Shown one piece after another: positions 8,588 to 58,169 of a stretch of DNA of 64,000 bases. How positions within the stretch are numbered: the stretch's first letter is position 1; every line of letters begins with the position of its first letter. The notes beneath the pieces were generated by a model, which made no database searches, was not told the DNA's origin, and saw only the letters and a program-made list of their open reading frames with translations. Both the position numbers and the translations under genes were made by a program. Source of the DNA: Salinigranum rubrum (GTDB lineage: Archaea; Halobacteriota; Halobacteria; Halobacteriales; Haloferacaceae); the NCBI RefSeq assembly GCF_002906575.1, contig NZ_CP026310.1, positions 124,001-188,000 of the forward strand. Reading direction: 5' to 3'.

Positions 8588-9612
8588 TCAGGCACCCGGA
8601 ACGAGGACGGCCCTGAACTCGACCGCCTGATCCTTCATCCGTTGATAGGCAGTCTCGGCCTCGGCGAGGGGAAACGTCTCGACCATCGGCGCGATCGATC
8701 TGAGAGCACTGAATTCGAGCACGTCCTGTGACTCACGTGCCGTCCCGGACGAGTGACCGTGCACCGATCGCTGGTTCTCGATCAGGTCGACGACGTCGAC
8801 GCCGAACCGGTTCTCGGGCACGCCCAGCGGATAGAGCTCTCCTTCAACTGCTAGTCCCGGGAGCGCTGTTTCGATCGCCTCCGTGGACGGCGCGGTCGCG
8901 ATGACGACTGACGCGCCGCCGAGAGCCATCAGTTGCTCGGCCGGGGACGACGCAGCCGCGTCGATGTAGTGATCCGCCCCGAGGTCCAACGCGAGGTCGT
9001 GTTTCTCTCTTCCCCGTGAGATCGCGACCGTTTCGAATCCGCCCGCCCGGGCGAACTGGATGCCGAGGTGACCTAGCCCCCGATCCCGACGACTGCCGCC
9101 ACGTCGCCGATCCGTGCGTTGCTCTTCCTGAGGACGTTGAAGGTGCTGACCCCCGCACACAACAGCGGTGCGGCGTCGATCGAGTCGAGGTCGTCAGGAA
9201 CCCGTGCCAGTGCGTGCTGTGACGCGATCACGTACTCTGCGTAGCCGCCGTCGGTGTCGATACCGGTCACCTGCTCGTTCGTGCAGTCGATGAACTCCCC
9301 GCTGCGGCAGGGGGCACAGGTGAAGCAGTGAGAGCCGTGCCAGCCGACTCCGACCCGCTCTCCCGCGGACCACTCCTCCACGGCATCGCCGACAGCGTCG
9401 ATGCGGCCGGCCACCTCGTGGCCGGGAACGCGGGGATATTCGATACCGGACCACGATCCTTCTCTGACGAACGTATCGCTGTGACAGACGCCGCAGGCTT
9501 CGACGGAGACCCGGACCTCGTCGGGACCCGGGACCGGAATCTCGCGCTCGACCAGTTCGAACTCCGCGCCGGGGCTGGGCACCTGTGCGACCTGCATGGT
9601 ATCACTACTCAT
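8588..9612 (-). pseudogene. Zinc-dependent alcohol dehydrogenase, one frameshift
   Basis: MDR-type alcohol dehydrogenase that interconverts alcohols and aldehydes with NAD(P). The first frame starts MSSDTMQVAQVPSPG and contains the catalytic zinc site CGVCHSD, the GHE motif and a cysteine cluster for the structural zinc (CAPCRSGEFIDC). It stops at the nucleotide-binding loop (VVGIGG-stop near 9079). The second frame resumes at once with GLGHLGIQFARAGG. Restoring one C or G in the GGGGGCTA run gives a continuous 341-residue protein, the normal family length. Nothing else is damaged, so a sequencing error is as likely as true inactivation. A TATA-like ACTTTAGC about 30 nt upstream supports the start. 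Confidence 0.85.
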
Positions 9613-10038
9613 CGGCTCTCTCTCCACCTTTGGGTGCTAAAGTCGTTGTGTTTGCGCCCACCTCACACACGTCCGGACGGATCGCCAACCGAGACGGGGT
9701 GATGCTCGGTACTGGTTCCGCGAGAGCGTTGTAACGGACGATGGGTGTTGAGGAACGGACGAAGGGATCCACTGGGAGCCACCGTCTCCAGCATAAAAAC
9801 ATCAAAAACACAGTCGAACGCGACCGACGGCGACCTGATCGTGAAGGCGATGAACTCGTCGGTCGGAGATGGTCCCCTGGCAATGCGATTGGGAGTACTC
9901 GGCCGGTTGTGGCCAGATACGAAGGGTGGTATGACTGCGTTGGCAGGTCGTGTTCCGAGAGTCTCCCCGTCGGATCTCACCGTTCTGCCCGTCCGACCCT
10001 CCCACAATTTTATCATAGCCGGGTTGGATACCGTTCCC
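9613..10038. promoter_or_regulatory. Divergent region between ADH and amidohydrolase
   Basis: No gene I can support in these 426 nt. A minus-strand ACTTTAGC near 9645 serves the alcohol dehydrogenase. TTTTATCA at about 10008-10016 lies 25-30 nt before the amidohydrolase ATG at 10039. A plus-strand frame running in from 9745 is an extension without family signal. Confidence 0.4.
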
Positions 10039-11045
10039 ATGCGGATAGATGTGCACAACCACTGTACGCCGGAACCGTTCGTTGATCTCCTCCTCGAGTG
10101 GGAGACGCCGGTCGGTATCGAGTCGGTTGACGACCAGCTGTATATGGTCCATCAGCGGTCCGGTGCGGCCGGTATCGGCGGCAACCGAATCCCCCTCGAC
10201 GAGGGGTTCTACGACATGGACTCGCGACTGGAGTGGATGGACGAACACGATATCGAGAAGACGGTGGCCTCGGTCTCGACGCCGAACCCCATCTCCGACG
10301 CGTTCACCCCGAGCAGTCGACAGAACTGGTCAGGGCTATCAACGACGGGTACGCCGATCTGGAGTCCCGTTATCCGGACGCGTTCGCCGGACTCGGTATG
10401 CTCCCGCTCCGCGAACCCGAGCAAGCCCTCGTCGAAGTCGACCGGATCGCCGGCGATCTGGATCTGAGCGGCATCGCGTTGCCCACTTCGATCAACGGCG
10501 ACAGGTTGTCGGCCCCGGAACTCGCGCCGGTGTTCGACAGGGTTGACGAACTGGGGCTGACGGCGTTCATCCATCCCCACGGTAACGTGCTCAGCGACAC
10601 GCTCGGGCCGGCGGAGACGATCCTCAATCCGCTCGTGATCTTTCCGACTGATACGACCCTCCAGGTCGCCCGGCTGATCTACGACGGCTTCTTCGACGCC
10701 CACGACTTCGACCTCGTCATCTCGCACATGGGCGGCGCGTTGCTCCATCTGGCCGGCCGGATCGACAAGGGCCGCCGCGAGATCAACGACCCCGACGCGC
10801 CGCCGACCAAGCCGTTCGTCGAATACCTCCAGGAGTTCTACTACGATACGATCTCGTTCCACCAACCCGCCTTGGAAGCGGCCCTCAAGACCGTCGGAAT
10901 CGACCGCTTCGTGTTCGGGACGGACTACCCGTTCGACATGGAGGAGTTCGACACCGCCGTCGGGGACGTCGAAGCCGTCGTCCCGGCGGCGGCCGACCGG
11001 GAGAAGATCATGTCGGAAACGGCCAGAGACCTCTTCGACTTCTGA
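10039..11045 (+). pseudogene. Amidohydrolase (ACMSD/amidohydrolase-2 type), one frameshift
   Basis: Metal-dependent TIM-barrel hydrolase or decarboxylase of the ACMSD-like branch. It starts MRIDVHNHCTPEPF, with the metal-binding HxH as His5 and His7. It carries AFIHPHGNV in the middle and the C-terminal signature DRFVFGTDYPFDME, whose Asp is the usual catalytic residue. The first frame is lost at DAFTPSSRQ near 10305; the second resumes as PEQSTELVRAINDGYADLES. One extra C in the ACCCCGAG run restores a 335-residue protein of normal length. The leaderless start is supported by TTTTATCA about 25 nt upstream. Relatives decarboxylate aromatic or semialdehyde acids, which would suit a ring-degradation module; the true substrate is unknown. 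Confidence 0.82.
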
Positions 11046-29406: not shown

Positions 29407-29778
29407 CTATGTTCTGTCATCGTCGCTCACCGCTGGCTGTGCACCGGTGAGTCGAACGAACGTGTTCGGAAACGCACGGTCGGCGGTTCGAAAGACCCCC
29501 TCATTCCGGGCGCGTAATCGTCTCATTCCACTCTCGAGGAGGTGATACACCTGGTCGCGGCCCATCGACTCGAAGAGATCTTGAGACTGTGCAACGGCGG
29601 TCGCACACACCTCGTCCTCCTCGCAGGGTCGTGAACAACCGGTACAGGTCGATTCGGTGGCTTTGAACGTGACTGGGTCCGAGGCGGCACGCAGGAGTAC
29701 CTCCGCGGTCCACGGGCGGTTTTCGCGAGCGCGCTTGAGAGCGGCTTTCCGTTCCTGACCGTGTTCGGGGGACGTCAC
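29407..29778 (-). CDS. Cys-rich small protein in transporter operon (123 aa)
   Basis: I do not recognise the family. The start is a GTG at 29778 that overlaps the DppF stop (GTGA), so it is co-translated with the transporter. The middle carries four closely spaced cysteines, CTGCSRPCEEDEVC, which could bind zinc or an iron-sulfur cluster. The rest is helical and charged (ERKAALKRARENRPWTAEVL; LFESMGRDQVYHLLESGMRR). There is no signal peptide or membrane segment, so it should be cytoplasmic. The ATPases of Dpp systems do not normally need such a partner, so it may belong to the enzymatic part. Confidence 0.65.
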   Translation of the reverse strand: MTSPEHGQERKAALKRARENRPWTAEVLLRAASDPVTFKATESTCTGCSRPCEEDEVCATAVAQSQDLFESMGRDQVYHLLESGMRRLRARNEGVFRTADRAFPNTFVRLTGAQPAVSDDDRT

Positions 29779-30828
29779 CAGTCCGGCACCTCCGCGAATT
29801 GATCGTCGTGGAGGTAACACCTGGCGAGGTGGTCGCCGCCCCGGTCGTACATCGCCGGTTCCTCCTCAGCACAGGCGTCGAACTCCCACGGACAGCGCGA
29901 CCTGAAGGCACACCCGCTTGGTTTCTCCCGCGGGTCGGGGATTTCGCCTTCGAGATACACGCTCTCCGGTTTCGCGCGTTCATCCGCTTCGCTGACGGTC
30001 GAAATCGCCGAGAGGAGCGCCCTGCTGTAGGGGTGTTCCGGTCTCGTGAACACCGACTCGACGTCGCCGATCTCAACGAGGCGACCGAGGTACATCACCC
30101 CGATTCGGTCTGCGACGTTTCGCAATAGCGAGAGGTCGTGCGTGATGAACAGGTACGTAATTCCGTACTCGTCTTGGATCGACTGGAGGATGTTGATGAT
30201 GCGCGCTTGAACCGAAACGTCGAGCGCACTCGTCGGTTCGTCGAGGACGACGAACTTCGGGTTCAGCGCGACCGCACGGGCTATACCGACCCGCTGTTTC
30301 TGCCCCCCGAGAGCTGGCCGGGATACCGGTACATGAACTCACGCGGGAGGTCGACCATGTCGAGCAGTTCTTCGATCCGGTTCAGCCGCTCTTTGGCTGT
30401 CCGTAGTCGTGGATCTTGAGCGGCGCCTCGATGATAGTCTTCACGCGGTGACGCGGATTGAGGCTCGATGTCGGGTCCTGGTGGACGATCTGCATGTTGC
30501 GGCGGAACCGCTTGAGCTCCGCCTGAGAGAGATCGACGACGTCCTGGCCGTCGATCTCGATCGTTCCGGCCGTCGGCTCCGTCAGTCGGAGCATCGACCG
30601 ACCGGTGGTCGTCTTCCCGGACCCGGATTCGCCGACCAGTCCGAAAGTCTCACCCTCTGCGATCGAGAAGCTGACCCCATCGACCGCCCGGACCGCCCCG
30701 ACGCGCCGCTGGAACACCCCCTCCTGGATCGGAAAGTGCTTCTGTAACCCCTCGACGCGAACCATCGCGTCCGCCTGGTCCACGCTCTGCTGTGCGTCTG
30801 GATCGTCTGTGGGTTCTGTGAGACTCAT
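29775..30828 (-). pseudogene. DppF/OppF-type ABC ATPase, two frameshifts
   Basis: Second ATPase of a peptide/opine/nickel importer. It starts [15 protein letters not shown] and has Walker [12 protein letters not shown], the Q-loop IVHQDPTSSLNPRHR, the signature QLSGG(Q)KQRVGIARAVALNP, Walker B FVVLDEPTSALD, the switch-His LFITHDLSL and the C-terminal oligopeptide_HPY Cys motif (GCAFRSRCPWEFDAC). The frame is broken twice: near 30395, where QPKSG-stop should be QPKERLNRIEELL, and near 30307, where one G is missing in the SGGQ run. Adding one base at each restores a 351-residue protein. All motifs are otherwise intact, so sequencing error is likely. Confidence 0.85.
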
Positions 30829-31960
30829 TGCTCTGATCCTCGGTTGACGACCGTGTCGGACGGCGCCTCCTCGTCGGAGCGAGACTCCCACGGTGGGGGC
30901 CGATGTCGATGGACGTGCTCGTGGTTCCCCGGTCGCGACTGTACGCTGCCGGCCCATCGAAGAGGTGACAGCCGACGGCGTGGCCGGACGTCGTCTCACG
31001 AAGGTGGGGAAACACCTCCGTACACTCCGGTTCCGCGTGGGGACACCGACTCGCAAACCGACACCCAGACGGTGGGTCGGTGTAGTCCGGTAGGTGCCCC
31101 TCGATGCCCGTCCCGATGCCGGTCGATAACATCGGGATGCTGTCCAGTAGACCGCGCGTGTAGGGGTGCTGTGGGCTTGAAAAGAGCTCTGCAGTCGGCG
31201 CCTGCTCGACTATCTCCCCGGCGTACATGACGTTGATGAAGTCACTCACCTCTCTCGCGACCCCAAGGTCGTGCGTGATGTACAGAACGCTCGTGTCACG
31301 TTCCTCGACGAGTTCGTCGAGTAGGTCAAGGACTTTGGCCTCGGTCGTGACGTCGAGCGCTGTGCCCGGTTCGTCTGCAATCAGCAGGTCGGGTTCCGAG
31401 AGGAGCGCGATAGCGATCAGCACCCGCTGTCGCATCCCGCCGGATAGTTCGACGGGGTAGCTGTTGAACACGCGTTCGGGGGCCGATATCTCGACGCTGT
31501 CGAGCATTCGTATCGCTCGGTCCCGGTACTCGCCGTCGGAGCCGGAGCCCGAGCCGACCTTGTCTCGGAGCCACTCCGTGACCGACAGCCGTGGCTTCCC
31601 CTGCCACTTCAGGACGTCGATCATCTGCTCGCCCACCTTCAGGACGGGGTTGAGCGAGGTCATCGGGTCCTGCATTATCATGCTCATCTCCTTGCCGCGT
31701 CGTGCGTGACGCTGCGAATCGGAGAGGTCGAGCACGTTCTCCCCCTTGTAGATGATCTCCCCCTCGGGGATACGTGCAGAGGGTAGCAGTCCCATGATGG
31801 CCTTGACCGTGACGCTCTTGCCACAGCCGGTCTCGCCGACCAGCGCGGCGGTCTCACCCCGGTCGAGGGTAAAATCGACGCCGTTGATCACCTCGGCGAC
31901 CCCGTCATAGGTGTCGAACTCTACGTGGAGGTTTCGCACCTCCAAGATGGGATTGTTCAT
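30825..31960 (-). CDS. DppD/OppD-type ABC ATPase, probable tail frameshift
   Basis: First ATPase of the importer: Walker [30 protein letters not shown], the signature [16 protein letters not shown], Walker [25 protein letters not shown], and the Cys-containing tail [20 protein letters not shown]. After CHLFDGPAA the frame runs on into dppF in an unnatural way to about 30650. The next frame instead gives an acidic end, [17 protein letters not shown], whose stop overlaps the dppF ATG. A one-base deletion near 30930-30965 explains this and makes a 378-residue protein. It is in an operon with dppB, dppC and dppF. Confidence 0.82.
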
Positions 31961-47969: not shown

Positions 47970-48800
47970 TTACTGGGAGGGATCGAGCCCATCGGTGACG
48001 AACTCCGTCGCTCGGCCAGCGACCGATGTGATACCACGGACGGACCGTCCGAGGTCCGCGCGGATGATGGTTCCGGTCATCGGGCGTGAATTCGCCGGCG
48101 ACGCCAGCAGCACGTAGGCCCCAGTGTAATCTTCGGGCTGCGGTACGATGTTGAGCGGGTGATTGGCGGCCTCAAACTCTTCTGGGGAGACGATGCCGCG
48201 CTCACCACCGAGCGAGTCGGTGGTGCTGAGGTCGGTCGGCACGTAGCCCGGGGCGACGCCGTTGACCCGGACTGTCGGCGCGAGCTCGAACGCCAGTTGA
48301 CGGACGATGCCTGCGATGGCATGTTTCGAGGGGACGTACAGGATACCACCGCCGTCCGAGTGGAAACTCGCCTGCGACGCAGTAAACACCATGCGGCCCT
48401 CCGTCTTGACCAGTTCGGGAAGCGCAGTCCGTGCGCCCAGGAGGTATCCCAGCACGTTGACCTCGAATAGTTCGGCGAAGTTCGAGTCGACGTCGTCGAG
48501 GTCCAGTTCCGGCAACGAGATGTTGTCGTCGAAGACACCGGCATTCCCGACGAACACGTCGAGATGACCGAACGCGTCCACCGCCGTCGAGACTCCCCGT
48601 TCGTTGTCCGCGAGCGACGTCACGTCCCCCTGGACGGTCACGATATCGTCAAACTCGGCCTCTAACTCGTCAAGTCGCTCGCGATCAAGGTCGAGGACAG
48701 CAACCTGCGCACCCTCCTCGAGGTACCGTCGAACGACCGCCCGTCCGAGGCCGGAGCCGCCACCTGTGACCAGTGCTACCTGATTGTCAAGCCACGTCAT
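47970..48800 (-). CDS. Short-chain dehydrogenase, cis-dihydrodiol type (276 aa)
   Basis: NAD-dependent oxidoreductase of the SDR family, probably oxidising a cis-dihydrodiol to a catechol. TGGGSGLG (near residue 15) binds the cofactor, NAGVFDDN is the NAG motif, and YVPSKHAIAG gives the catalytic Tyr-x-x-x-Lys. GNAGVFDDNISLPELDLDDV and the ending TGTIIRADLGRSVRGI resemble BphB/HcaB dehydrogenases that follow Rieske dioxygenases. The ATG at 48800 lies about 28 nt after CTTATGTA, so the message is leaderless and the upstream extension to 48908 is discarded. It is divergent from the dioxygenase genes at 49.5 kb. Confidence 0.85.
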   Translation of the reverse strand: MTWLDNQVALVTGGGSGLGRAVVRRYLEEGAQVAVLDLDRERLDELEAEFDDIVTVQGDVTSLADNERGVSTAVDAFGHLDVFVGNAGVFDDNISLPELDLDDVDSNFAELFEVNVLGYLLGARTALPELVKTEGRMVFTASQASFHSDGGGILYVPSKHAIAGIVRQLAFELAPTVRVNGVAPGYVPTDLSTTDSLGGERGIVSPEEFEAANHPLNIVPQPEDYTGAYVLLASPANSRPMTGTIIRADLGRSVRGITSVAGRATEFVTDGLDPSQ

Positions 48801-49521: not shown

Positions 49522-50894
49522 ATGGCGACTAATAATAGCCAATCTGAGGGTGGAGAGACGTCGCGAAGTCGCGCGCTAGGTCTCATCGACCGGATGCGAG
49601 AAACCCTCGAAGACGGTGAGGTACCGATGCAGATACTGAACGATGAGGCAGTTCATCAACTGGAACTCGAACGGATATTCGGACAGAACTGGGTGTATGT
49701 CGGCCACGAGTCCGAGGTTCCCGAACCGGGCGACTACCGCCAACGGACCATCGGTGAGGACCCGTTCATTTTCGTCCGCGGTGAGGACGGCAAGTTCCGG
49801 GTCCTGTTCAACAGCTGTCGGCACCGGGGGCGAACGTCTGCCGAGCGGAGAAGGGCAACACGTCTCACTTCCGGTGTCCGTACCACGGCTGGACGTACAA
49901 GAACACAGGCGACCTCGTCGGCGTCCCGCAGAAGGCTGCCGGTTTCGACCACCTTGACGCGGAGAAACGCGGCCTCCACGAGGCACCACACGTCGAAGAG
50001 TACAAGGGCCTCGTATTCGCCTGTGTTGCCCCGGAGGTGGAGCCGTTGGAGGAATTCCTCGGCGGGGCGACCTGGTTCCTCGATCTGTACTTCGACCTCA
50101 TCGACATGGAGGTCATCGGCGACCCGCACCGCTGGGAGGTGGAAAACGACTGGAAGACGCCGACCGAGAATTTCTACGGGGACAACTACCACATCCCGAT
50201 GGGTCACAAGTCAGCCATCGACGCCGGCGTCGGCAGCGATACGGCGACCGGCGAGAAGGAGAGCAACCTCATCGGTGTCGCGGACTGCGACGGTCACGGG
50301 TTCAGTTTCTACCAGATCGAGTCCGAGGAAGACAGCTACTGGGGTCACCCACCAGAGGTCGTGGAGACGTTCAACCACGACGCGCTGTCAGACGAACAGC
50401 ACGAGGTCGCCCGGAAGTCCGGCGTGACGCTGGGAACCATCTTCCCGAACCTTTCGTTCATCTTCTTGGGCGGCCGCGACGACCCAGAGAAGGACTCCGT
50501 CGGCACGTTCCTGTTACGGAAGTGGGAGCCCCGCGGCGCAGGCAAGATGGAGGTCGTCAACTGGATTCTCGCCCCGAAAGCCGCGTCCGAGGAGTACAAG
50601 GAGCGCGTCTACGAGGTCGGTATGTCGAACTTCAGCCCCTCCGGAAACTTCGAGGTTGACGATGTCGGCATCTGGTACGGCATCGACGACGCCGCGGGCA
50701 GCGTCTTTGCTCGCCAGAACGACGACGTGAACACGCTGTTCACGATGGGTCGCGGCGAGGACCCGGCAGCGACTGTCTACGAGGACTGGGTCGGCCCCGG
50801 CACGGCGTACCTCGAGGGGGGCATGACTGACGAGAACCAGCTCGATTTCTACCGAACCTGGCACGAGGCCATTACCTCCGACGGGGGGCTGTAG
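49522..50894 (+). pseudogene. Rieske ring-hydroxylating dioxygenase alpha subunit, one frameshift
   Basis: Catalytic subunit that dihydroxylates aromatic rings. The first frame runs MATNNSQSEGGETSR to NSCRHRGRTSAE; the correct frame resumes as ANVCRAEKGNTSHFRCPYHG. One G is missing in the CGGGGGCG run near 49830. With it restored the Rieske centre is complete (CRHRG, 15-17 residues, CPYHGW), and the mononuclear iron site is GDNYHIPMGHKS (two His and the bridging Asp region). The corrected length is 457 residues, normal for the family. TCATTAAG lies about 30 nt before the ATG. The beta gene starts at the next base. Confidence 0.88.
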
Positions 50895-51407
50895 ATGAGC
50901 GAGACCGTCTCGAACCCGCAGCTCCGGGCCAGGTGCGAGGAGTTCCTATACCACACGGCCGAACTCCTCGACAATCGTCAGCTCTCCGAGTGGCACGATC
51001 TCGTGACCGAGGACATCGACTACAGGGTTCCCATCCGCACGACTCGCGAGCGGTCGAACCGCACGGAATTCAGTGACTCCTCGTTCCACATGAAGGAGGA
51101 CTGGGGAACCCTGGAAGTGCGGACCGAGCGCATGCAGAGCGACTTCGCGTGGTCCGAGGACCCGCCGTCGCGCACCCGCCGTCACGTAAGCAACGTCCGT
51201 ATTGTCGACGACGATGGCGAGGAGGTCCGACTCAAGAACAACCTCCTCGTCTTCCGGCAGCGGGGCGACGAGACCGAACCGGAAATCCTCTCGATGGAGC
51301 GGCACGACACGCTCCGCCGTACCGATGACGGGTTCAAGATCGCCAAACGGCTCGTCCTGCTCGACCACACCATCATCCCGACGAACACGCTCTCCATCAT
51401 CCTATGA
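50895..51407 (+). CDS. Ring-hydroxylating dioxygenase beta subunit (170 aa)
   Basis: Small structural subunit of the alpha3beta3 dioxygenase, with the SnoaL-like alpha+beta fold. Family features are FLYHTAELLDNRQLSEWHDL, VTEDIDYRVPIRTTRERSN, SFHMKEDWGTLEVRTERMQS, PSRTRRHVSNVRIVDDDG and the ending RLVLLDHTIIPTNTLSIIL. The length is normal. It starts immediately after the alpha stop codon and overlaps the next gene by 4 nt. No ferredoxin or reductase gene is seen nearby, so electrons must come from elsewhere. Confidence 0.92.
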   Translation: MSETVSNPQLRARCEEFLYHTAELLDNRQLSEWHDLVTEDIDYRVPIRTTRERSNRTEFSDSSFHMKEDWGTLEVRTERMQSDFAWSEDPPSRTRRHVSNVRIVDDDGEEVRLKNNLLVFRQRGDETEPEILSMERHDTLRRTDDGFKIAKRLVLLDHTIIPTNTLSIIL

Positions 51408-51868
51408 CAACCGATACCACAAACGACCCGACGATCACGCTCCGAGCGGACGACCAGGCGGTATCGCTCACGCGGGAACCCACACCGGCCGGCGAGCGCC
51501 TCCGCGTCGATTCGAACGGCGACACGACGCGACTCGACGCCCTCGCCCTCGAGAGTCTTACGTGGCAGGACGACGAGTTCTTTGCGGAGTTGACTGGGGA
51601 GGAACACACCGCCGGCGAGAACGTGGAGCGAACCGACGAGTCACTCCAGATCGGCAACGAGTACACCGTCGTTCAACTGGCCGTGCTGGACACAGACGCC
51701 GGTCCACGACTCGTGATCGACTCGCCCAAGCTAGGCTACTCGTGTCAGCTCTCCGTCGCCGAACTCGCGGCACTGAGCCGACAGGAGATGGACCTGTTTT
51801 CCGATCTCCTCCGCACCCCGCTGGGACCCGTTGACGAGGAGGACGAGCATCCGCTGTTTCACCACTAA
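51404..51868 (+). CDS. Unknown third protein of the dioxygenase operon (154 aa)
   Basis: I do not recognise it. The start overlaps the beta-subunit stop (ATGA at 51404), so it is translated with the dioxygenase. It is very acidic, and only one Cys is present (GYSCQLSVAEL), so it is not a ferredoxin. Beta-rich segments (TITLRADDQAVSLTREPTPA, YTVVQLAVLDTDAGPRLVID) are followed by a helix (SVAELAALSRQEMDLFSDLL) and a His-ending acidic tail. It could be an assembly or specificity factor. The operon ends here and faces the convergent alpha/beta hydrolase gene. Confidence 0.75.
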   Translation: MTTDTTNDPTITLRADDQAVSLTREPTPAGERLRVDSNGDTTRLDALALESLTWQDDEFFAELTGEEHTAGENVERTDESLQIGNEYTVVQLAVLDTDAGPRLVIDSPKLGYSCQLSVAELAALSRQEMDLFSDLLRTPLGPVDEEDEHPLFHH

Positions 51869-51885: not shown

Positions 51886-52767
51886 TCAGTGATCACGTGC
51901 ACGCTTGATGAACGACACCGTGAGCTCTGCAACCCGTCGTTCGTTGCCCGTGAAAAAATGGTCAGCGGCGATGGGCTCGACCTCGACGAGCGGACTCGCG
52001 GTAGCCGTCTCGGCAATCTCCTCCGCTTCGGTCGGCGTGACGTTCCGATCCGAGGAGTGCGGCACGAGCAGGATTGGAATCTTAATGTCGGGCGTCCAAT
52101 CGACGGTCGCACACTTGCTCTCCGGAGAGCGGTACGACAGGAACGACGCAGCCGTCATCGGGATGTACTCGATCTCATCCCCGACAGGCCGTGGGAGGGC
52201 GACGATTTCGTTGCCACGCCCCGCCTCGACGAGGTTCCGAGCTCGCTGGACGAACGTCTCGTACGCCTGGTCTGGATCATCGGAGATCGCCGCGAAGTAG
52301 CCTCTGGTTGACCGCTCACGGATGTCGGCGAACGGTGCCGCGAGGACGACAGCATCCACGTCTGGGTCGTTGCGCAGCCCCTGGTAGTATGCGGCTTCGG
52401 TCGCACCGAGGCTCCGACCCCAGATGACGATTTCCTCACAGCCCTGTTCGGTCAGTCGTTCGACCGCTCCGCGAATATCGCGATCTACCTCGGCGAAGTC
52501 GGACGTCTCGTACAGTTTCCCACTGTTTCGCTTGTTGATCGTGAGACACCGCATGCCCGCCCGGGCGAGCGGGTAGGCGACGGGCGAGATGCCGCCGCCG
52601 AGTGCGAACCCCCGAAGACCGTGGAGAAACACGGCCCCGGTCTGTCGCCCATCGAACGTGGTCTGTTCGCTCGTCATCTCGAATCCGTCGAACTGACGGC
52701 CGTCCTCGCTTTTGTAGTTGATCGCGCGCAGTTGAATGTCGTCTGGTGTCGGCTTCATTACAGGCAT
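51886..52767 (-). CDS. Alpha/beta-hydrolase (293 aa)
   Basis: Serine hydrolase fold. The nucleophile elbow is WGRSLGATEAAYY, the oxyanion-hole region is AVFLHGLRGFALGGGISPVA, and the catalytic His is probably in IAADHFFTGNE near the C-terminus, with PILLVPHSSDRNVTPTEAE giving the acid strand. It belongs to the general dienelactone-hydrolase/acyl-hydrolase shape; the substrate is unknown. It follows the ThDP enzyme gene after 50 nt in the same direction and may hydrolyse the ring-cleavage product (inference). ATG 52767 is used; ATG 52758 is possible. Confidence 0.83.
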   Translation of the reverse strand: MPVMKPTPDDIQLRAINYKSEDGRQFDGFEMTSEQTTFDGRQTGAVFLHGLRGFALGGGISPVAYPLARAGMRCLTINKRNSGKLYETSDFAEVDRDIRGAVERLTEQGCEEIVIWGRSLGATEAAYYQGLRNDPDVDAVVLAAPFADIRERSTRGYFAAISDDPDQAYETFVQRARNLVEAGRGNEIVALPRPVGDEIEYIPMTAASFLSYRSPESKCATVDWTPDIKIPILLVPHSSDRNVTPTEAEEIAETATASPLVEVEPIAADHFFTGNERRVAELTVSFIKRARDH

Positions 52768-52817: not shown

Positions 52818-54479
52818 CTACCAGATTTTCCGTGAGACGTACTCGGCTTTGGGGTCGGTGACGATGTCGAGGACGACGTGCTCGTCGGCCGCGAGCGCTT
52901 CTTCGAGCGCCGGGCGGACCTCCGAGGGGTTCTCGACGCGGATTCCCCGGGCGCCGAAGCCGTCGGCAATCGCTGCGATGTTCGTCTGCGGGATGTCCGT
53001 TCCAACGGAATCGTAGCCGCTGTTCCGCTGGTAGTTCCAGATCATCCCGTATTTTGAGTCGTTCATCACGATGGTGACGGCGTCGGTGGCCGTCTCAACC
53101 GCCGTTGCAAGTTCCATGTTGCACATGAGGAATCCACCGTCACCGATGAGATTGACGACCTGTCTCTCGGGGTCAACGAGTTTCGCCGTGTTCCCGGCCG
53201 GAATCGGGAACCCCATCGAGTCGTACAGCCGTGAGTGCTGGAACGAGTTCGGCGCCCGGTACTCGAACGCGTCGTTCGGCCAGGCACCCCCGGCGGCTCC
53301 CGCGTCGCCGGTGATAACGATGTCGTCGTCGGCAGCGTCACGAAGCTCGGTCATGATAAGAAGCGGGTGAATCGGCGTCTGGTCGCGAATCTCGTCGAGA
53401 TACGCGTCCGTGTCGACCGCGACGCGTTCCATCTCCGCGGCGACAGTCTCGCGGTACGAGCTATCGGTCGATCCGTCCCCAGTTTCGATATGTTCTCCCG
53501 TGGCTTTGAGAATCCCATCGAGTTCCCCGGCAACAACAGAGTTCGCCTGCGTCTGGGGATGCTCTCGGGCCCCCGCGTGGAAATACACGATCTCCGTGTC
53601 GAGACCGGTCCGATCGCCGAGGATGGCTGCTTCGTGCGAACTCGGGCGGACACCAATTGAGAGCACAGCGTCGGCGTCTGCGAGTGCACGGGTCGCCGCG
53701 GGGTGGTCCGCCATGCCGACCGTTCCCGCGAACAGTTCGTGGTCGTTCGGGAAGGAGTCCGGATAGTGCCGTGGACAAACCACGGGGCAGTCGAGTTGCT
53801 CTGCGATAGTGACCACCTCGTCCCACGCGAACGCTCGCAGAACGCCCTTGCCAACGTACAGGGCGCGGTGCGTCGTGTCGAATAACGGGCTGAGTGCGTC
53901 ACCAACCGCGTCCGCGGTCGGGGGGGCGTCCTCCTGCCGTGTCAGTCTAAAGGGCGGATCTGTGATGTCGACTTCCTCCATGAGAATCGTTTCGTCGATG
54001 CCGATGAAAACCGGTCCCGGTCGCCCGCTCATTGCGATATCGAACGCGCGATCGACGACCTCGGGCAGCAGATCCGGATCGTGGACCTGTGTACTCCACT
54101 TTGTGGCTGGCTTGAACGCCTTTTCGAGGAAATGCTGGTCGTCGACGCCGTGGAGCGCTTCGGTTGGAGCGTCTTCCGGAAGGACAGCGCTGATGCAGAC
54201 CATCGGGGACGCGGCGGTGTAGGCCTGTGCGACACCGGTCAGCGCGTTCGTCCCACCGGGGCCCGCGACGGTAATCGCGACGCCAGGATCGCCTGTGAGA
54301 CGCCCGTACGTATCAGCCATGACGGCGGCATTGTATTCGTGACGTGCAGTGACGACAGAGACGTCACGCTGGTCGAGACCGTTGACGAGACTAACAGTCT
54401 GGTTGCCTGCGAGAGTGTAGACCTCCGAGACGCTGTTATCGACTAGAAGCTGTGCTACAGTATCTCCTCCAGTTGTCAT
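52818..54479 (-). CDS. ThDP-dependent enzyme, acetolactate synthase-like (553 aa)
   Basis: Three-domain thiamine diphosphate enzyme that cleaves or forms bonds next to a keto group. The N-terminal pyrimidine-binding domain has the activating Glu48 in TARHEYNAAVMADTYGRLTG, the middle domain has ADADAVLSIGVRPSSHEA, and the C-terminal domain has NLIGDGGFLMCNMELATAVE, then VMNDSKYGMIWNYQ, the ThDP motif GDG-x(about 26)-N. It lacks a small-subunit partner nearby, so a decarboxylase or carboligase is as likely as acetolactate synthesis. TATA CATTTATT about 30 nt upstream sets ATG 54479; a palindrome lies between the box and the ATG. Confidence 0.87.
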   Translation of the reverse strand: MTTGGDTVAQLLVDNSVSEVYTLAGNQTVSLVNGLDQRDVSVVTARHEYNAAVMADTYGRLTGDPGVAITVAGPGGTNALTGVAQAYTAASPMVCISAVLPEDAPTEALHGVDDQHFLEKAFKPATKWSTQVHDPDLLPEVVDRAFDIAMSGRPGPVFIGIDETILMEEVDITDPPFRLTRQEDAPPTADAVGDALSPLFDTTHRALYVGKGVLRAFAWDEVVTIAEQLDCPVVCPRHYPDSFPNDHELFAGTVGMADHPAATRALADADAVLSIGVRPSSHEAAILGDRTGLDTEIVYFHAGAREHPQTQANSVVAGELDGILKATGEHIETGDGSTDSSYRETVAAEMERVAVDTDAYLDEIRDQTPIHPLLIMTELRDAADDDIVITGDAGAAGGAWPNDAFEYRAPNSFQHSRLYDSMGFPIPAGNTAKLVDPERQVVNLIGDGGFLMCNMELATAVETATDAVTIVMNDSKYGMIWNYQRNSGYDSVGTDIPQTNIAAIADGFGARGIRVENPSEVRPALEEALAADEHVVLDIVTDPKAEYVSRKIW

Positions 54480-54483
54480 GTAT

Positions 54484-54514
54484 AGCCAACGTTTGGCTTC
54501 CATAATAAATGTTT
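54484..54514 (-). promoter_or_regulatory. Operator-like palindrome and TATA box of the ThDP enzyme gene
   Basis: AGCCAA-CGT-TTGGCT at 54484-54498 (perfect 6-nt arms) sits between CATTTATT (minus, 54507-54514) and the ATG at 54479, that is, across the predicted transcription start. A protein bound there would block transcription. Confidence 0.5.
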
Positions 54515-54583: not shown

Positions 54584-55636
54584 TCAGTCGACGAGGTCGC
54601 CGTCCTCGACGACTGTCTCGCCGTCGAGTGTGACCGTACAGCCCTTTTGCGCGATGTCGTAGTGACACGGCGTGTACCGCTCCTGGTGGGTGTTCGGCCC
54701 CGTACTCCAGAGCATGTTGCCGGACCAGACACGGCCTTCACTCGCACTGACACCAGTTTCGTCGGGTTTCCGGTCATGGATCGCCATGTTGTAGAACCGT
54801 CCGTTCTTGTTGAGTCCCCAGCCGAAGTGGCTCGTCGCGAACACGTCACGGTCGTCGTAGCTCCCCATGTGTCCACGCATCAGTTCGGCGTCGCCACCCT
54901 CACCGTTGATTTCGACGATGTAGCTGTCTTCGACGACGCACTCGACCGGCGCATCGTAGTAGTCAGCGAACGGAACAACGTTGTAGTCGCCCGGTCCGAT
55001 GACTATTGTCCCGTTGACGTTTGTCGGGTAGTTCGACACCATGTTCTGGCCCCAGACGTCCCACTTCCCGGGTTCGTCGACGAACCCGTAGGAAGCAAAC
55101 GCTGTATCGGGTTCGACCTCCATCGTGAGATCGGTCCCGTGGGACGACGTGATGCGCATCTCGTCGGCAGCAGCAAGTCGCTCGCTCGCTGCTGTCACCC
55201 GTGCTTTGACCTCCGCTGCCTCCTCGCTCGTCCAGGGCATCAGGCGCCGAAGCACGAACGGTTCGCGTGCACCGACCCGAAGGATACGCGTCCCCGCGTT
55301 TCTGATCGCGGTCCGCTCGGGAACGTGGATGAACCCTTCGAGCGTAAAGTCGAACACCAGATCGGCGGCCTTACACGCTTCGACGGGGCCGCCGGGCAGT
55401 CGCAGCGTTCCGCCCTGGCCGGCGGACACCTCGGCGCCGACGGAGTTCCGACCGTACTCCGGAACCTTCACTTCGAACGCGTCCGCTCCGATATCGTGTG
55501 CGGCCGCAAAGCTCGCACCAACGAACTCACGCTTGCTCTTGACGTCTGTGACGAGTGCCACAGTCTCATCCTCGGTCACGTTGCAGTGTTCCATCTGCCG
55601 ACGGAACAGCGGCACTAGTAGGCCTGCTTCTTCCAT
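54584..55636 (-). CDS. NicX-like 2,5-dihydroxypyridine dioxygenase-family protein (350 aa)
   Basis: Resembles the nicotinate-pathway ring-cleaving enzyme NicX, an M29-peptidase relative. Matching features are YGFVDEPGKWDVWGQNMVSN, VFATSHFGWGLNKNGRFYNM, SGNMLWSTGPNTH and YTPCHYDIAQKGCTVTLDG. The likely iron ligands are His270, His325 and Asp327, equivalent by motif to those reported for the Pseudomonas enzyme. The reaction in that family opens a dihydroxypyridine with O2. I start at MEEAGLLVPLF (55636); the longer frame starts with TTG at 55681. It shares a divergent promoter region with aspartate dehydrogenase. An aminopeptidase activity is the alternative. Confidence 0.78.
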   Translation of the reverse strand: MEEAGLLVPLFRRQMEHCNVTEDETVALVTDVKSKREFVGASFAAAHDIGADAFEVKVPEYGRNSVGAEVSAGQGGTLRLPGGPVEACKAADLVFDFTLEGFIHVPERTAIRNAGTRILRVGAREPFVLRRLMPWTSEEAAEVKARVTAASERLAAADEMRITSSHGTDLTMEVEPDTAFASYGFVDEPGKWDVWGQNMVSNYPTNVNGTIVIGPGDYNVVPFADYYDAPVECVVEDSYIVEINGEGGDAELMRGHMGSYDDRDVFATSHFGWGLNKNGRFYNMAIHDRKPDETGVSASEGRVWSGNMLWSTGPNTHQERYTPCHYDIAQKGCTVTLDGETVVEDGDLVD

Positions 55637-55795
55637 GTTGCCAGCTGATTGTTTCGGAGCCAGTATGATAACGTTTTCCAATTCTATAAATTTATTGATA
55701 TATAACTGCGCTTTGGACTACCCTTTCGTTCACAGAAGTCAGAAGAGCCCGTGATAGCCGAATCCTTTTTCAATAGGTGTAACAGTATCAGCAGT
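55637..55795. promoter_or_regulatory. Divergent promoter, NicX-like gene / aspartate dehydrogenase
   Basis: AT-rich core with TTATATAT and AATTTATAG (minus sense, about 55684-55706) suitable for the NicX-like gene, and TTTTTCAAT about 28 nt before the aspartate dehydrogenase ATG. The IclR gene at 58.4 kb is the nearest candidate regulator. I see no perfect palindrome here. Confidence 0.45.
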
Positions 55796-56617
55796 ATGCC
55801 GCGAACAGTAGCCTTGCTCGGATTCGGGACTATCGGTCAGGAAATTGCCCGCGCGATCGACGATGGGACGATCAGTTCGTCTCTGGGTGCTATCTACGAC
55901 AATCAGCCGGACCGCGTCGAAGAACGGATTCGACAGTTCTCGGTGGAGCCACGGATCGTCACGGAGATGCACCAGTTGACAGCCTCGGCAGACCTCATCG
56001 TCGAAGCAGCGGGACAGTCTGCAGTCAAGGAGTACGCCGTATCCGTGCTCGAATCCGGCTGTGACCTCATGCTGCTCAGCGTCGGCGCACTCGCGGATGC
56101 CGACCTCTGGAAGCACCTGTCGACGACTGCCGAACGGACCGGAGCGTCGATCTACGCCCCCTCAGGTGCTATTGCGGGAATCGACGCGATCAAAGCCGCT
56201 TCTCGTGTCGGTGCACTTGACTCGGTGTCGCTGACAACCATAAAGAACCCGAGCTCATTCGAAGGGGCGCCCTACCTCGACACGCTTGATTATCAAGTCC
56301 AGTCGTTGAGCGAGCCGAGGGTCGTATTCGAGGGGACCGCCACCGATGCTGCGGCAGCTTTTCCCTCGAACATCAACGTCGCTGTCATCCTGAGTCTCGC
56401 GGGACTCGGAACGGACCGGACGAGGGTTCGCATCGTCGCTGACCCCAACGAAAAAAGTAACGTGCACCAGCTCGACGCTACCGGCAGGACTGGTACGATT
56501 GAGACGACAGTTCGAAACGTACCTTCACCGAACAATCCTAAGACGAGCTATCTCGCTCCGGGCTCTGTCATCGAGAAACTGCAGGACTTGGAATCGACTT
56601 TCCACATCGGAACATAA
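55796..56617 (+). CDS. nadX: L-aspartate dehydrogenase (273 aa)
   Basis: NAD(P)-dependent interconversion of aspartate with iminoaspartate/oxaloacetate and ammonia. The N-terminal Rossmann motif GFGTIG is at residues 9-14, SADLIVEAAGQSAVKEYAVS is a family landmark, YAPSGAIAGIDAIKAAS is the catalytic-domain entry, and FPSNINVAVILSLAGLGTDR is the conserved helix of AspDH. The ATG at 55796 is preferred over the frame at 55751, which lacks similarity. Besides NAD synthesis, such genes occur in catabolic clusters, where they could release ammonia from a product such as aspartate (inference). It is followed after 6 nt by an EamA transporter gene. Confidence 0.87.
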   Translation: MPRTVALLGFGTIGQEIARAIDDGTISSSLGAIYDNQPDRVEERIRQFSVEPRIVTEMHQLTASADLIVEAAGQSAVKEYAVSVLESGCDLMLLSVGALADADLWKHLSTTAERTGASIYAPSGAIAGIDAIKAASRVGALDSVSLTTIKNPSSFEGAPYLDTLDYQVQSLSEPRVVFEGTATDAAAAFPSNINVAVILSLAGLGTDRTRVRIVADPNEKSNVHQLDATGRTGTIETTVRNVPSPNNPKTSYLAPGSVIEKLQDLESTFHIGT

Positions 56618-57581: not shown

Positions 57582-58169
57582 ATGGTAGTACAAAACATGG
57601 GGCTAGACCATGTCGCTATCAAAGTCCGAGACCTCGAATCGTCAGTGGCGTTCTATCGCGACGTCATGAATATGGGAGTATCAGACCGAATCGGTGATGC
57701 GGTCGCGTTCCTGCGAACGCCGGCCGATGCCGAGGATTCACAGCACCATGAACTCAACCTCACACAGATGTCCGAAGAGGAGCTGAGTGTGCTTGAAGAA
57801 CGTGGTGAGCGTGAACTCGACCTCCACGAGTTCGAACGGGACCTCCACGAGGACGGCCCGCCGATGCTGCCGGCTTCTGGTCCGATATACCATATCGCGT
57901 TCGAGGTTCCGAACTATCAAGCGATTGTCAGAGCAGCAGAGGGACTCCGTGAGCGGAACCACCCGATCTACCGAGGACCAGGGCGCCACGGACCGGGGAA
58001 CAACATCTTCCTGTACTTTCCAGATCCCGACGGCTACCCCATCGAATTGACCGCAGATATGGAAGAGGCACCGGAAGTTGGAGGAAAGAAGCCGAAGCAG
58101 TGGCCCCAGACGAAGGAGACTTGGAACGTCTGGTATCACACGCAGGACCTCGACGAACCAGAAGAATAA
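57582..58169 (+). CDS. VOC-family protein, extradiol-dioxygenase-like (195 aa)
   Basis: Vicinal-oxygen-chelate fold with candidate metal ligands in LDHVAIKVRDLESSVAFYRD (His), SGPIYHIAFEVPNYQAIV (His) and PDPDGYPIELTADM (Glu), the 2-His-1-carboxylate set of catechol 2,3-dioxygenases and glyoxalases. It has a long acidic insertion (SEEELSVLEERGERELDLHE) and a C-terminal extension ending TWNVWYHTQDLDEPEE. With the Rieske dioxygenase and diol dehydrogenase genes nearby, extradiol ring cleavage is a natural guess, but a glyoxalase-type role remains possible. The start may be 57582 or the next ATG, 57597. Confidence 0.83.
   Translation: MVVQNMGLDHVAIKVRDLESSVAFYRDVMNMGVSDRIGDAVAFLRTPADAEDSQHHELNLTQMSEEELSVLEERGERELDLHEFERDLHEDGPPMLPASGPIYHIAFEVPNYQAIVRAAEGLRERNHPIYRGPGRHGPGNNIFLYFPDPDGYPIELTADMEEAPEVGGKKPKQWPQTKETWNVWYHTQDLDEPEE

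Follow-up and report, generated by a model that had tools for sequence, protein, structure and literature searches.

A small protein of the phtU-position family, duplicated in haloarchaea, accompanies alpha + beta Rieske oxygenases and is a candidate accessory factor

Rieske oxygenases are central in pollutant breakdown and biocatalysis, and they are usually rebuilt from three components: oxygenase, ferredoxin, and reductase. The locus studied here, in a 64,000-nt stretch of Salinigranum rubrum DNA (the window), raises the question of what a further small protein, whose gene overlaps that of the oxygenase beta subunit, contributes to such an enzyme. As described below, this third protein belongs to a family that is internally duplicated in haloarchaea, keeps its place in the gene order, and occurs nearly exclusively with alpha + beta oxygenases. 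It is probably a helper used by this enzyme family. The features of the locus are as follows.

47970..48800, minus strand: HcaB/BphB-like SDR, candidate cis-dihydrodiol dehydrogenase, oriented divergently to the oxygenase genes (Pfam adh_short, 152 bits)
49522..49836, plus strand: N-terminal part of the alpha subunit, including the first Rieske motif, CRHRG; frame lost at about 49826-49836
49836..50894, plus strand: remainder of the alpha subunit in a different frame, with CPYHGW and the mononuclear-iron region (Pfam Ring_hydroxyl_A, 45 bits)
50895..51407, plus strand: Rieske oxygenase beta subunit (Pfam Ring_hydroxyl_B, PF00866, 123 bits; cut-off, 27)
51404..51407, plus strand: ATGA, 4-nt overlap of the beta stop and the third-gene start; the same overlap occurs in 21 of 40 related loci
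51404..51868, plus strand: third protein, 154 aa, one cysteine, a two-domain relative of PhtU-position proteins
51431..51595, plus strand: N repeat of the third protein, residues 10-64, keeping L49 E50 and W54 Q55
51626..51814, plus strand: C repeat of the third protein, residues 75-137, keeping N85 E86 Y87
51886..52767, minus strand: alpha/beta hydrolase, conserved-cluster member
52818..54503, minus strand: ThDP-dependent enzyme, conserved-cluster member
54584..55681, minus strand: relative of 2,5-dihydroxypyridine 5,6-dioxygenase (NicX, PDB 7cn3; E 8.4e-49)
55751..56617, plus strand: aspartate-dehydrogenase family protein (Pfam, NCBIfam)
57582..58169, plus strand: VOC-family protein, extradiol-dioxygenase-like (Pfam, NCBIfam)

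Several elements of a first-pass annotation, made from the sequence alone, held up. The beta subunit scores far above its family cut-off and is the sole PF00866 gene of the source genome, and the length, single cysteine, and 4-nt overlap of the third gene are evident from the sequence itself. The divergent dehydrogenase likewise proved to be BphB/HcaB-like, at 334 bits against NCBIfam PRK06200 (cut-off, 330), and scored under the cut-offs of the stricter NCBIfam HcaB and BphB models (324 bits for HcaB; cut-off, 450). The closest solved alpha subunit to the 49836..50894 piece is that of Rhodococcus naphthalene dioxygenase (2b1x; E 2.9e-62), and the beta subunit matches chain B of the same structure (E 3.4e-42).

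The alpha subunit had been read as intact with full motifs, but its two domains are present only as pieces and its motifs are split over two frames, with a break within the Rieske domain at 49826-49836. The frame opened by the ATG at 49522 reads as alpha, CRHRG included, to about 49830 and then departs between the two Rieske motifs; CPYHGW and NYHIPMGH both lie in the other frame, from 49836 on. The two nearest relatives (Haloferax elongans and Halostella pelagica) carry alpha as an unbroken reading frame (458 and 457 aa). Because further genes in the window are apparently split likewise (8588-9627, 9745-11045, and 29501-31056), we consider an error of assembly or sequencing more probable than genuine decay of the gene. 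The other split genes apparently encode an alcohol dehydrogenase, an amidohydrolase, and an ABC ATPase, and such a pattern is that of an error-prone assembly.

We then considered whether the third gene encodes a real protein. Searches of Pfam and NCBIfam with the third protein gave no match, and no PDB sequence matches its family. Nucleotide differences from the nearest relative fall unevenly over codon positions 1, 2, and 3 (25, 17, and 71 over 152 codons), which points to a real, constrained protein; together with conservation across 35 genomes, this rules out a chance open reading frame. A frameshifted piece of another protein, which would have undone the first-pass interpretation, is also ruled out, since no match to a known family recurs among 40 members in Pfam, NCBIfam, or PDB searches. 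Scattered matches to DUF6420 (4 members, E 0.011) and the BrnA antitoxin (1 member, E 0.00088) were taken as chance.

To define the distribution of the family, we surveyed 391 Halobacteria genomes. A single-sequence search found the third protein in 36 genomes (47 places), a profile of 40 members found it in 37, and PF00866 beta subunits occur in 35 (46 places). All 35 genomes with a PF00866 beta subunit have the third protein, compared with 2 of the 356 without one: a lone fragment in G272 and a borderline match in G149 (E 9.8e-4) that we took as chance. Counting genomes as independent despite their relatedness, Fisher's test for beta and third protein by genome gives p ~6e-48. PF00848 alpha subunits are more widespread (96 genomes), 64 of these genomes lacking a beta subunit, and only one of the 64, G272, has a third-protein relic. 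The family thus accompanies alpha + beta oxygenases and not alpha-only ones, and the first-pass guess of an accessory factor is strengthened by homologues that sit beside dioxygenases. The G272 fragment (contig C4; L155 9231-9569), a relic or an independent use, has no alpha, beta, or SDR match in the 19 kb that surround it. Separately, a second match in G068 was taken as chance; a match in G045 (E 5.8e-4), lying in a frame of 980 aa, was dropped, as it was absent from the profile search and had no oxygenase near; and a Hyphomicrobiales match (H23) belongs to a 1027-aa ABC/cyclic-nucleotide protein.

The gene order in Halobacteria is similarly consistent. The third gene lies directly downstream of beta on the same strand at 41 of the 46 beta genes, 40 by a scripted rule plus one in G017 that is counted although its single-sequence match is truncated. 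In all 40 loci fetched first, alpha and beta adjoin the third gene. Between the beta stop and the chosen third-gene start, these loci show a 4-nt overlap (21 loci), a gap of 2 nt (12 loci), 5 nt (1 locus), or 14-17 nt (4 loci), and in the last 2 the third gene is not downstream. Four haloarchaeal copies have been rearranged: the third gene adjoins alpha on the opposite strand in G070 and G233, and it is single-domain and 3 and 10 kb off in G289 and G215. Three haloarchaeal loci (L103, L104, and L108) encode a single-domain protein, in two cases at a distance from beta. No third gene was found in the 19 kb that surround one beta locus (G160:C33), though a second, sister oxygenase of that genome is accompanied by one.

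The surroundings of the oxygenase are less constant. Alpha, beta, the third gene, the SDR, the hydrolase, the ThDP enzyme, and the NicX-like, aspartate-dehydrogenase-like, and VOC proteins are found as a set in 7 of the 40 loci, and most other loci retain alpha, beta, and the third gene with differing neighbors. Such variation among the neighbors links the third protein to the oxygenase rather than to any single pathway. The NicX relative hints at an N-heterocycle as a possible substrate class of the cluster. That protein, which has no match in Pfam or NCBIfam searches, keeps its place next to the oxygenase in several haloarchaea; the aspartate-dehydrogenase family protein and the ThDP enzyme of the conserved cluster are foreign to textbook aromatic pathways.

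The family extends well beyond haloarchaea, into four bacterial phyla that include inhabitants of soil and hot springs. With the window protein as query, tblastn recovers bacterial copies without an intermediate profile (E as low as 2e-12). Bacterial frequencies refer to plasmid records, of which 58 have the third protein (E 0.01) and 221 have beta (E 1e-5). The bacterial relatives have one domain of 72-121 aa and are annotated as hypothetical or misnamed dihydrodiol dehydrogenase. We opened 14 bacterial third-gene places, and in 13 the gene comes right after beta: Rhodococcus nar on pNAPH, the pNAPH pht locus, Rhodococcus jostii RHA1 pRHL2, Rhodococcus USK13, Pseudarthrobacter Sphe3, Arthrobacter crystallopoietes, Arthrobacter keyseri pRE1, Gordonia, Pseudonocardia, Thermomicrobium roseum, Thermus thermophilus, Thermus oshimai, and Geobacillus pBt40. 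The exception is Rhodococcus pyridinivorans YF3, where the gene belongs to the oxygenase operon but follows alpha and beta, in the same orientation, only after several kilobases. The 4-nt overlap with beta recurs in A. keyseri and RHA1. In the reverse direction, we opened 13 bacterial beta places, picked by us out of 60 listed, and searched their flanks with the profile: the third gene was missing in 12, including bph, ben, and E. coli hca, and a further copy was present after beta in the dfd-like locus of Rhodococcus p52. This spread bears on the suggestion that the protein serves folding or docking in high salt. Since the family occurs in Rhodococcus, Arthrobacter, Thermus, Geobacillus, and Thermomicrobium, a high-salt role is unsupported and unlikely, and we rejected a salt-adaptation factor.

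In pht operons (phtBAaAbUAcAdCR), the relative stands between phtAb and phtAc, which is the place of phtU; our use of the name PhtU rests on the gene order in PMC10134610 and not on a published PhtU sequence. PMC10134610 and PMC10434107 give phtU as a gene of unknown function, its role yet undefined in the former, and we found no paper assigning PhtU a function in the open-access literature searched. Nor did we find, in the same literature, a paper on a haloarchaeal alpha + beta Rieske oxygenase with the third gene. In PMC10134610, phtU is described as missing from the A. keyseri cluster; contrary to this, the RefSeq record of A. keyseri pRE1 holds a 112-aa family member at the phtU place (L119 4956-5294). 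The original label of an unknown third protein is therefore apt insofar as Pfam and NCBIfam contain no match, but it misses relatives that hold the phtU place, itself undefined in role. On sequence grounds, we regard the third protein as a member of a conserved unnamed family and no haloarchaeal oddity.

Structural and profile comparisons clarify how the haloarchaeal and bacterial forms are related. The AlphaFold2 model of the third protein (pLDDT 87.8, pTM 0.81) contains two beta4-alpha2 repeats. The N repeat is modeled with strands at residues 10-15, 18-27, 30-37, and 40-45 and helices at 46-52 and 57-64; the C repeat has strands at 75-85, 89-97, 100-107, and 112-117 and helices at 118-125 and 129-137. 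The two halves match each other by profile (E 9e-13), and the bacterial domain profile matches both the C half (E 3e-24) and the N half (E 5e-19). By hhalign, the window family and the bacterial phtU-position domain are related with 99.6% and 99.1% probability. The haloarchaeal third protein is a tandem duplication of the bacterial-type domain, and with its two tandem copies the window protein is a variant that falls outside the single-domain form (~70-120 aa).

The halves have kept different motifs. In the N half, the LE..xWQ motif has W54 in 40/40 members and Q in 39/40, and a W at the equivalent place in the C half occurs in 0/40. In the C half, the NE(Y/F) motif has E and Y/F87 in 40/40 and N in 36/40, and a Y/F at the N-half equivalent occurs in 0/40. 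Bacterial single-domain proteins carry both motifs (NEF and LE, 14/14; LE..xW, 12/14). From this division we infer that the haloarchaeal protein is a fused dimer with one site kept per half and that in bacteria two single-domain chains pair as a homodimer. A composite site may form where the NE(Y/F) motif from one repeat meets the LE..xWQ motif from the other.

The best solved match found by Foldseek is the pair of repeats I-II of PUR-alpha (E 2.3e-5, TM 0.30), and a second aligner gave a Z of 5.3 (53 residues, 1.6 A), under the safe level. The third protein may fold as a PUR-like pair of beta4-alpha2 repeats; the modeled repeat pair resembles that of PUR-alpha weakly, and the protein is acidic and has no sequence match to it. 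The PUR-alpha rank could suggest a nucleic-acid-binding autoregulator of its own operon. We consider this very improbable, as a common fold does not show function, several of the operons have their own IclR or GntR regulators, and the proteins are acidic in 40/40 haloarchaeal rows (pI 4.1-5.4) and in 13/14 bacterial relatives.

If the protein serves the oxygenase, the two might be expected to have diverged together. Over 41 rows, evolutionary distances are correlated (Spearman) at 0.52 for alpha and the third protein, 0.44 for beta and the third protein, and 0.76 for alpha and beta, and each value exceeds all 2000 permutations. On a tree of 73 alphas, in which long branches leave some placements unsure, presence of the gene needs 7 changes, compared with a shuffled mean of 13.9 (0/500 as low). 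In the supported set of 61 alpha rows, the gene is beside the oxygenase in 56, further off in 2, and missing in 3; two bacterial alphas, of M. rufum and Sphingobium, lie inside the main clade without the gene. We are highly confident that the third protein is linked to the oxygenase.

One way in which it could be linked is through electron transfer. With one cysteine in the window protein and 0-3 across 40 relatives, it has no cluster-binding cysteines, so we rejected a ferredoxin or reductase, in agreement with the first-pass view that it is not a ferredoxin. Queries with pht- and bph-type ferredoxins and reductases found nothing in the window and a single weak match, of Rieske type, in 45 other haloarchaeal loci (L061, E 6e-4); ferredoxin motif scans near the loci gave only apparent shadow-frame matches plus one larger FeS protein (L044). 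The source genome has no match to Reductase_C (PF14759) or Fer4_13. It does contain plant-type Fer2 at 14 places, along with small Rieske proteins (137 and 158 aa) and a Fer4_15 ferredoxin of 80 aa (CIGMFQC...CP) whose middle cysteine is missing, as in PhtAc. The claim that electron-transfer genes are lacking thus holds for the neighborhood, that is, the window and, bar the one weak match, the 45 other loci, but not for the genome. With none near the locus and candidates present in the genome, the native electron donor is probably encoded elsewhere. The Fer4_15 gene (L157 1468-1710; G000:C1 ~4.099 Mb), a candidate donor, adjoins a bacteriorhodopsin-like gene, and a Rieske domain lies within a 619-aa frame at G000:C1:3486089-3486340 (L130).

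Effector proteins such as MmoB, which gates methane monooxygenase, illustrate how a small partner can act on an assembled oxygenase. The third protein might similarly help a single-cluster or general ferredoxin dock on the oxygenase, or gate catalysis. Operon ferredoxins of pht, YF3, and dfd show the CxxxxxC...CP pattern of the single-cluster [3Fe-4S] type, the bph operon has a Rieske-type ferredoxin and no third gene, and the source genome encodes one member of this single-cluster family, Fer4_15; NarAaAb is also said to need a [3Fe-4S] ferredoxin (PMC11176777). However, the gene is retained with no such ferredoxin near in haloarchaea, nar, Thermus, and Geobacillus, and Croceicoccus has a small single-cluster-type ferredoxin beside an oxygenase without the third gene, which contradicts the gene as a strict marker of [3Fe-4S] ferredoxin systems. 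Moreover, Fer4_15 also occurs in Haloferax volcanii, which is absent from the PF00866 list, so that this ferredoxin is not dedicated to the oxygenase. We view a docking or effector protein as a serious but rather unlikely alternative.

Instead, the third protein would act on the oxygenase itself, a target favored by its pairing with alpha + beta enzymes only, its coupling to beta, and its retention across differing ferredoxin types. In this proposal, the haloarchaeal, internally duplicated version of the small phtU-position protein would be made together with beta via the overlapping start. Gene order and translational coupling with beta might equally suggest a stable third (gamma) subunit, but Rhodococcus naphthalene dioxygenase and phthalate 3,4-dioxygenase, close relatives that have been solved, consist of alpha and beta chains, and no PDB chain matches the third protein; we judge a gamma subunit improbable. 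According to PMC11176777, the NarAaAb of Hydrogenibacillus, which is of the Rhodococcus type, shows activity in E. coli with alpha, beta, and a foreign ferredoxin and reductase alone, which suggests that the factor is not strictly needed for that enzyme. Absence from the solved structures and activity of a related oxygenase made without it together point to a helper that the enzyme can at times do without and that does not bind it stably; on this ground we rank assembly or maturation first and a docking or effector role in electron transfer second. We tentatively favor, at a little under even confidence, an accessory factor dedicated to alpha3beta3 Rieske ring-hydroxylating oxygenases that acts in assembly or maturation, either by promoting alpha-beta association or by shielding half-made iron centers.

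If an accessory role is correct, phtU would gain a role, and omission of a conserved gene product could explain poor activity or assembly of these oxygenases in foreign hosts. A broader proposal, possible but somewhat short of an even chance, is that a whole branch of Rieske oxygenases (naphthalene, phthalate, dibenzofuran, and all haloarchaeal alpha + beta types seen) works with one protein beyond those usually counted. This would be a PUR-like pseudo-dimer, fused through duplication in archaea with one functional site left to each half, that serves the oxygenase generally as an effector or in maturation. Because the family spans haloarchaea and four bacterial phyla, divides its motifs, and co-occurs almost perfectly with the oxygenase, the question is open to direct tests in Rhodococcus, Arthrobacter, or Haloferax.

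Comparison with known systems places the locus among characterized dioxygenases while setting it apart from each. Alpha, beta, and the SDR all find their best NCBIfam matches in the 3-phenylpropionate dioxygenase system HcaEF/HcaB, but they score below the strict equivalog cut-offs (HcaE, 147 of 830 bits; HcaF, 104 of 230; HcaB as above), and the E. coli hca locus is without the third gene by profile search. The closest solved alpha and beta subunits are those of NarAaAb (2b1x) and phthalate 3,4-dioxygenase (9jp5), from which the window oxygenase differs in being archaeal and in its frame-broken alpha; nar on pNAPH resembles the window locus in that no neighbor of its oxygenase is annotated as a pht-type ferredoxin or reductase. 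MmoB and DmpM are small cofactor-less effector proteins encoded with an oxygenase, and the third protein, which has no Pfam match, would resemble them in role only, as a small cofactor-less oxygenase partner. The nearest counterpart is the PhtU-position protein, which shares the sequence family and the gene place directly after beta; the bacterial proteins are single-domain, whereas the window protein has two domains with divided motifs.
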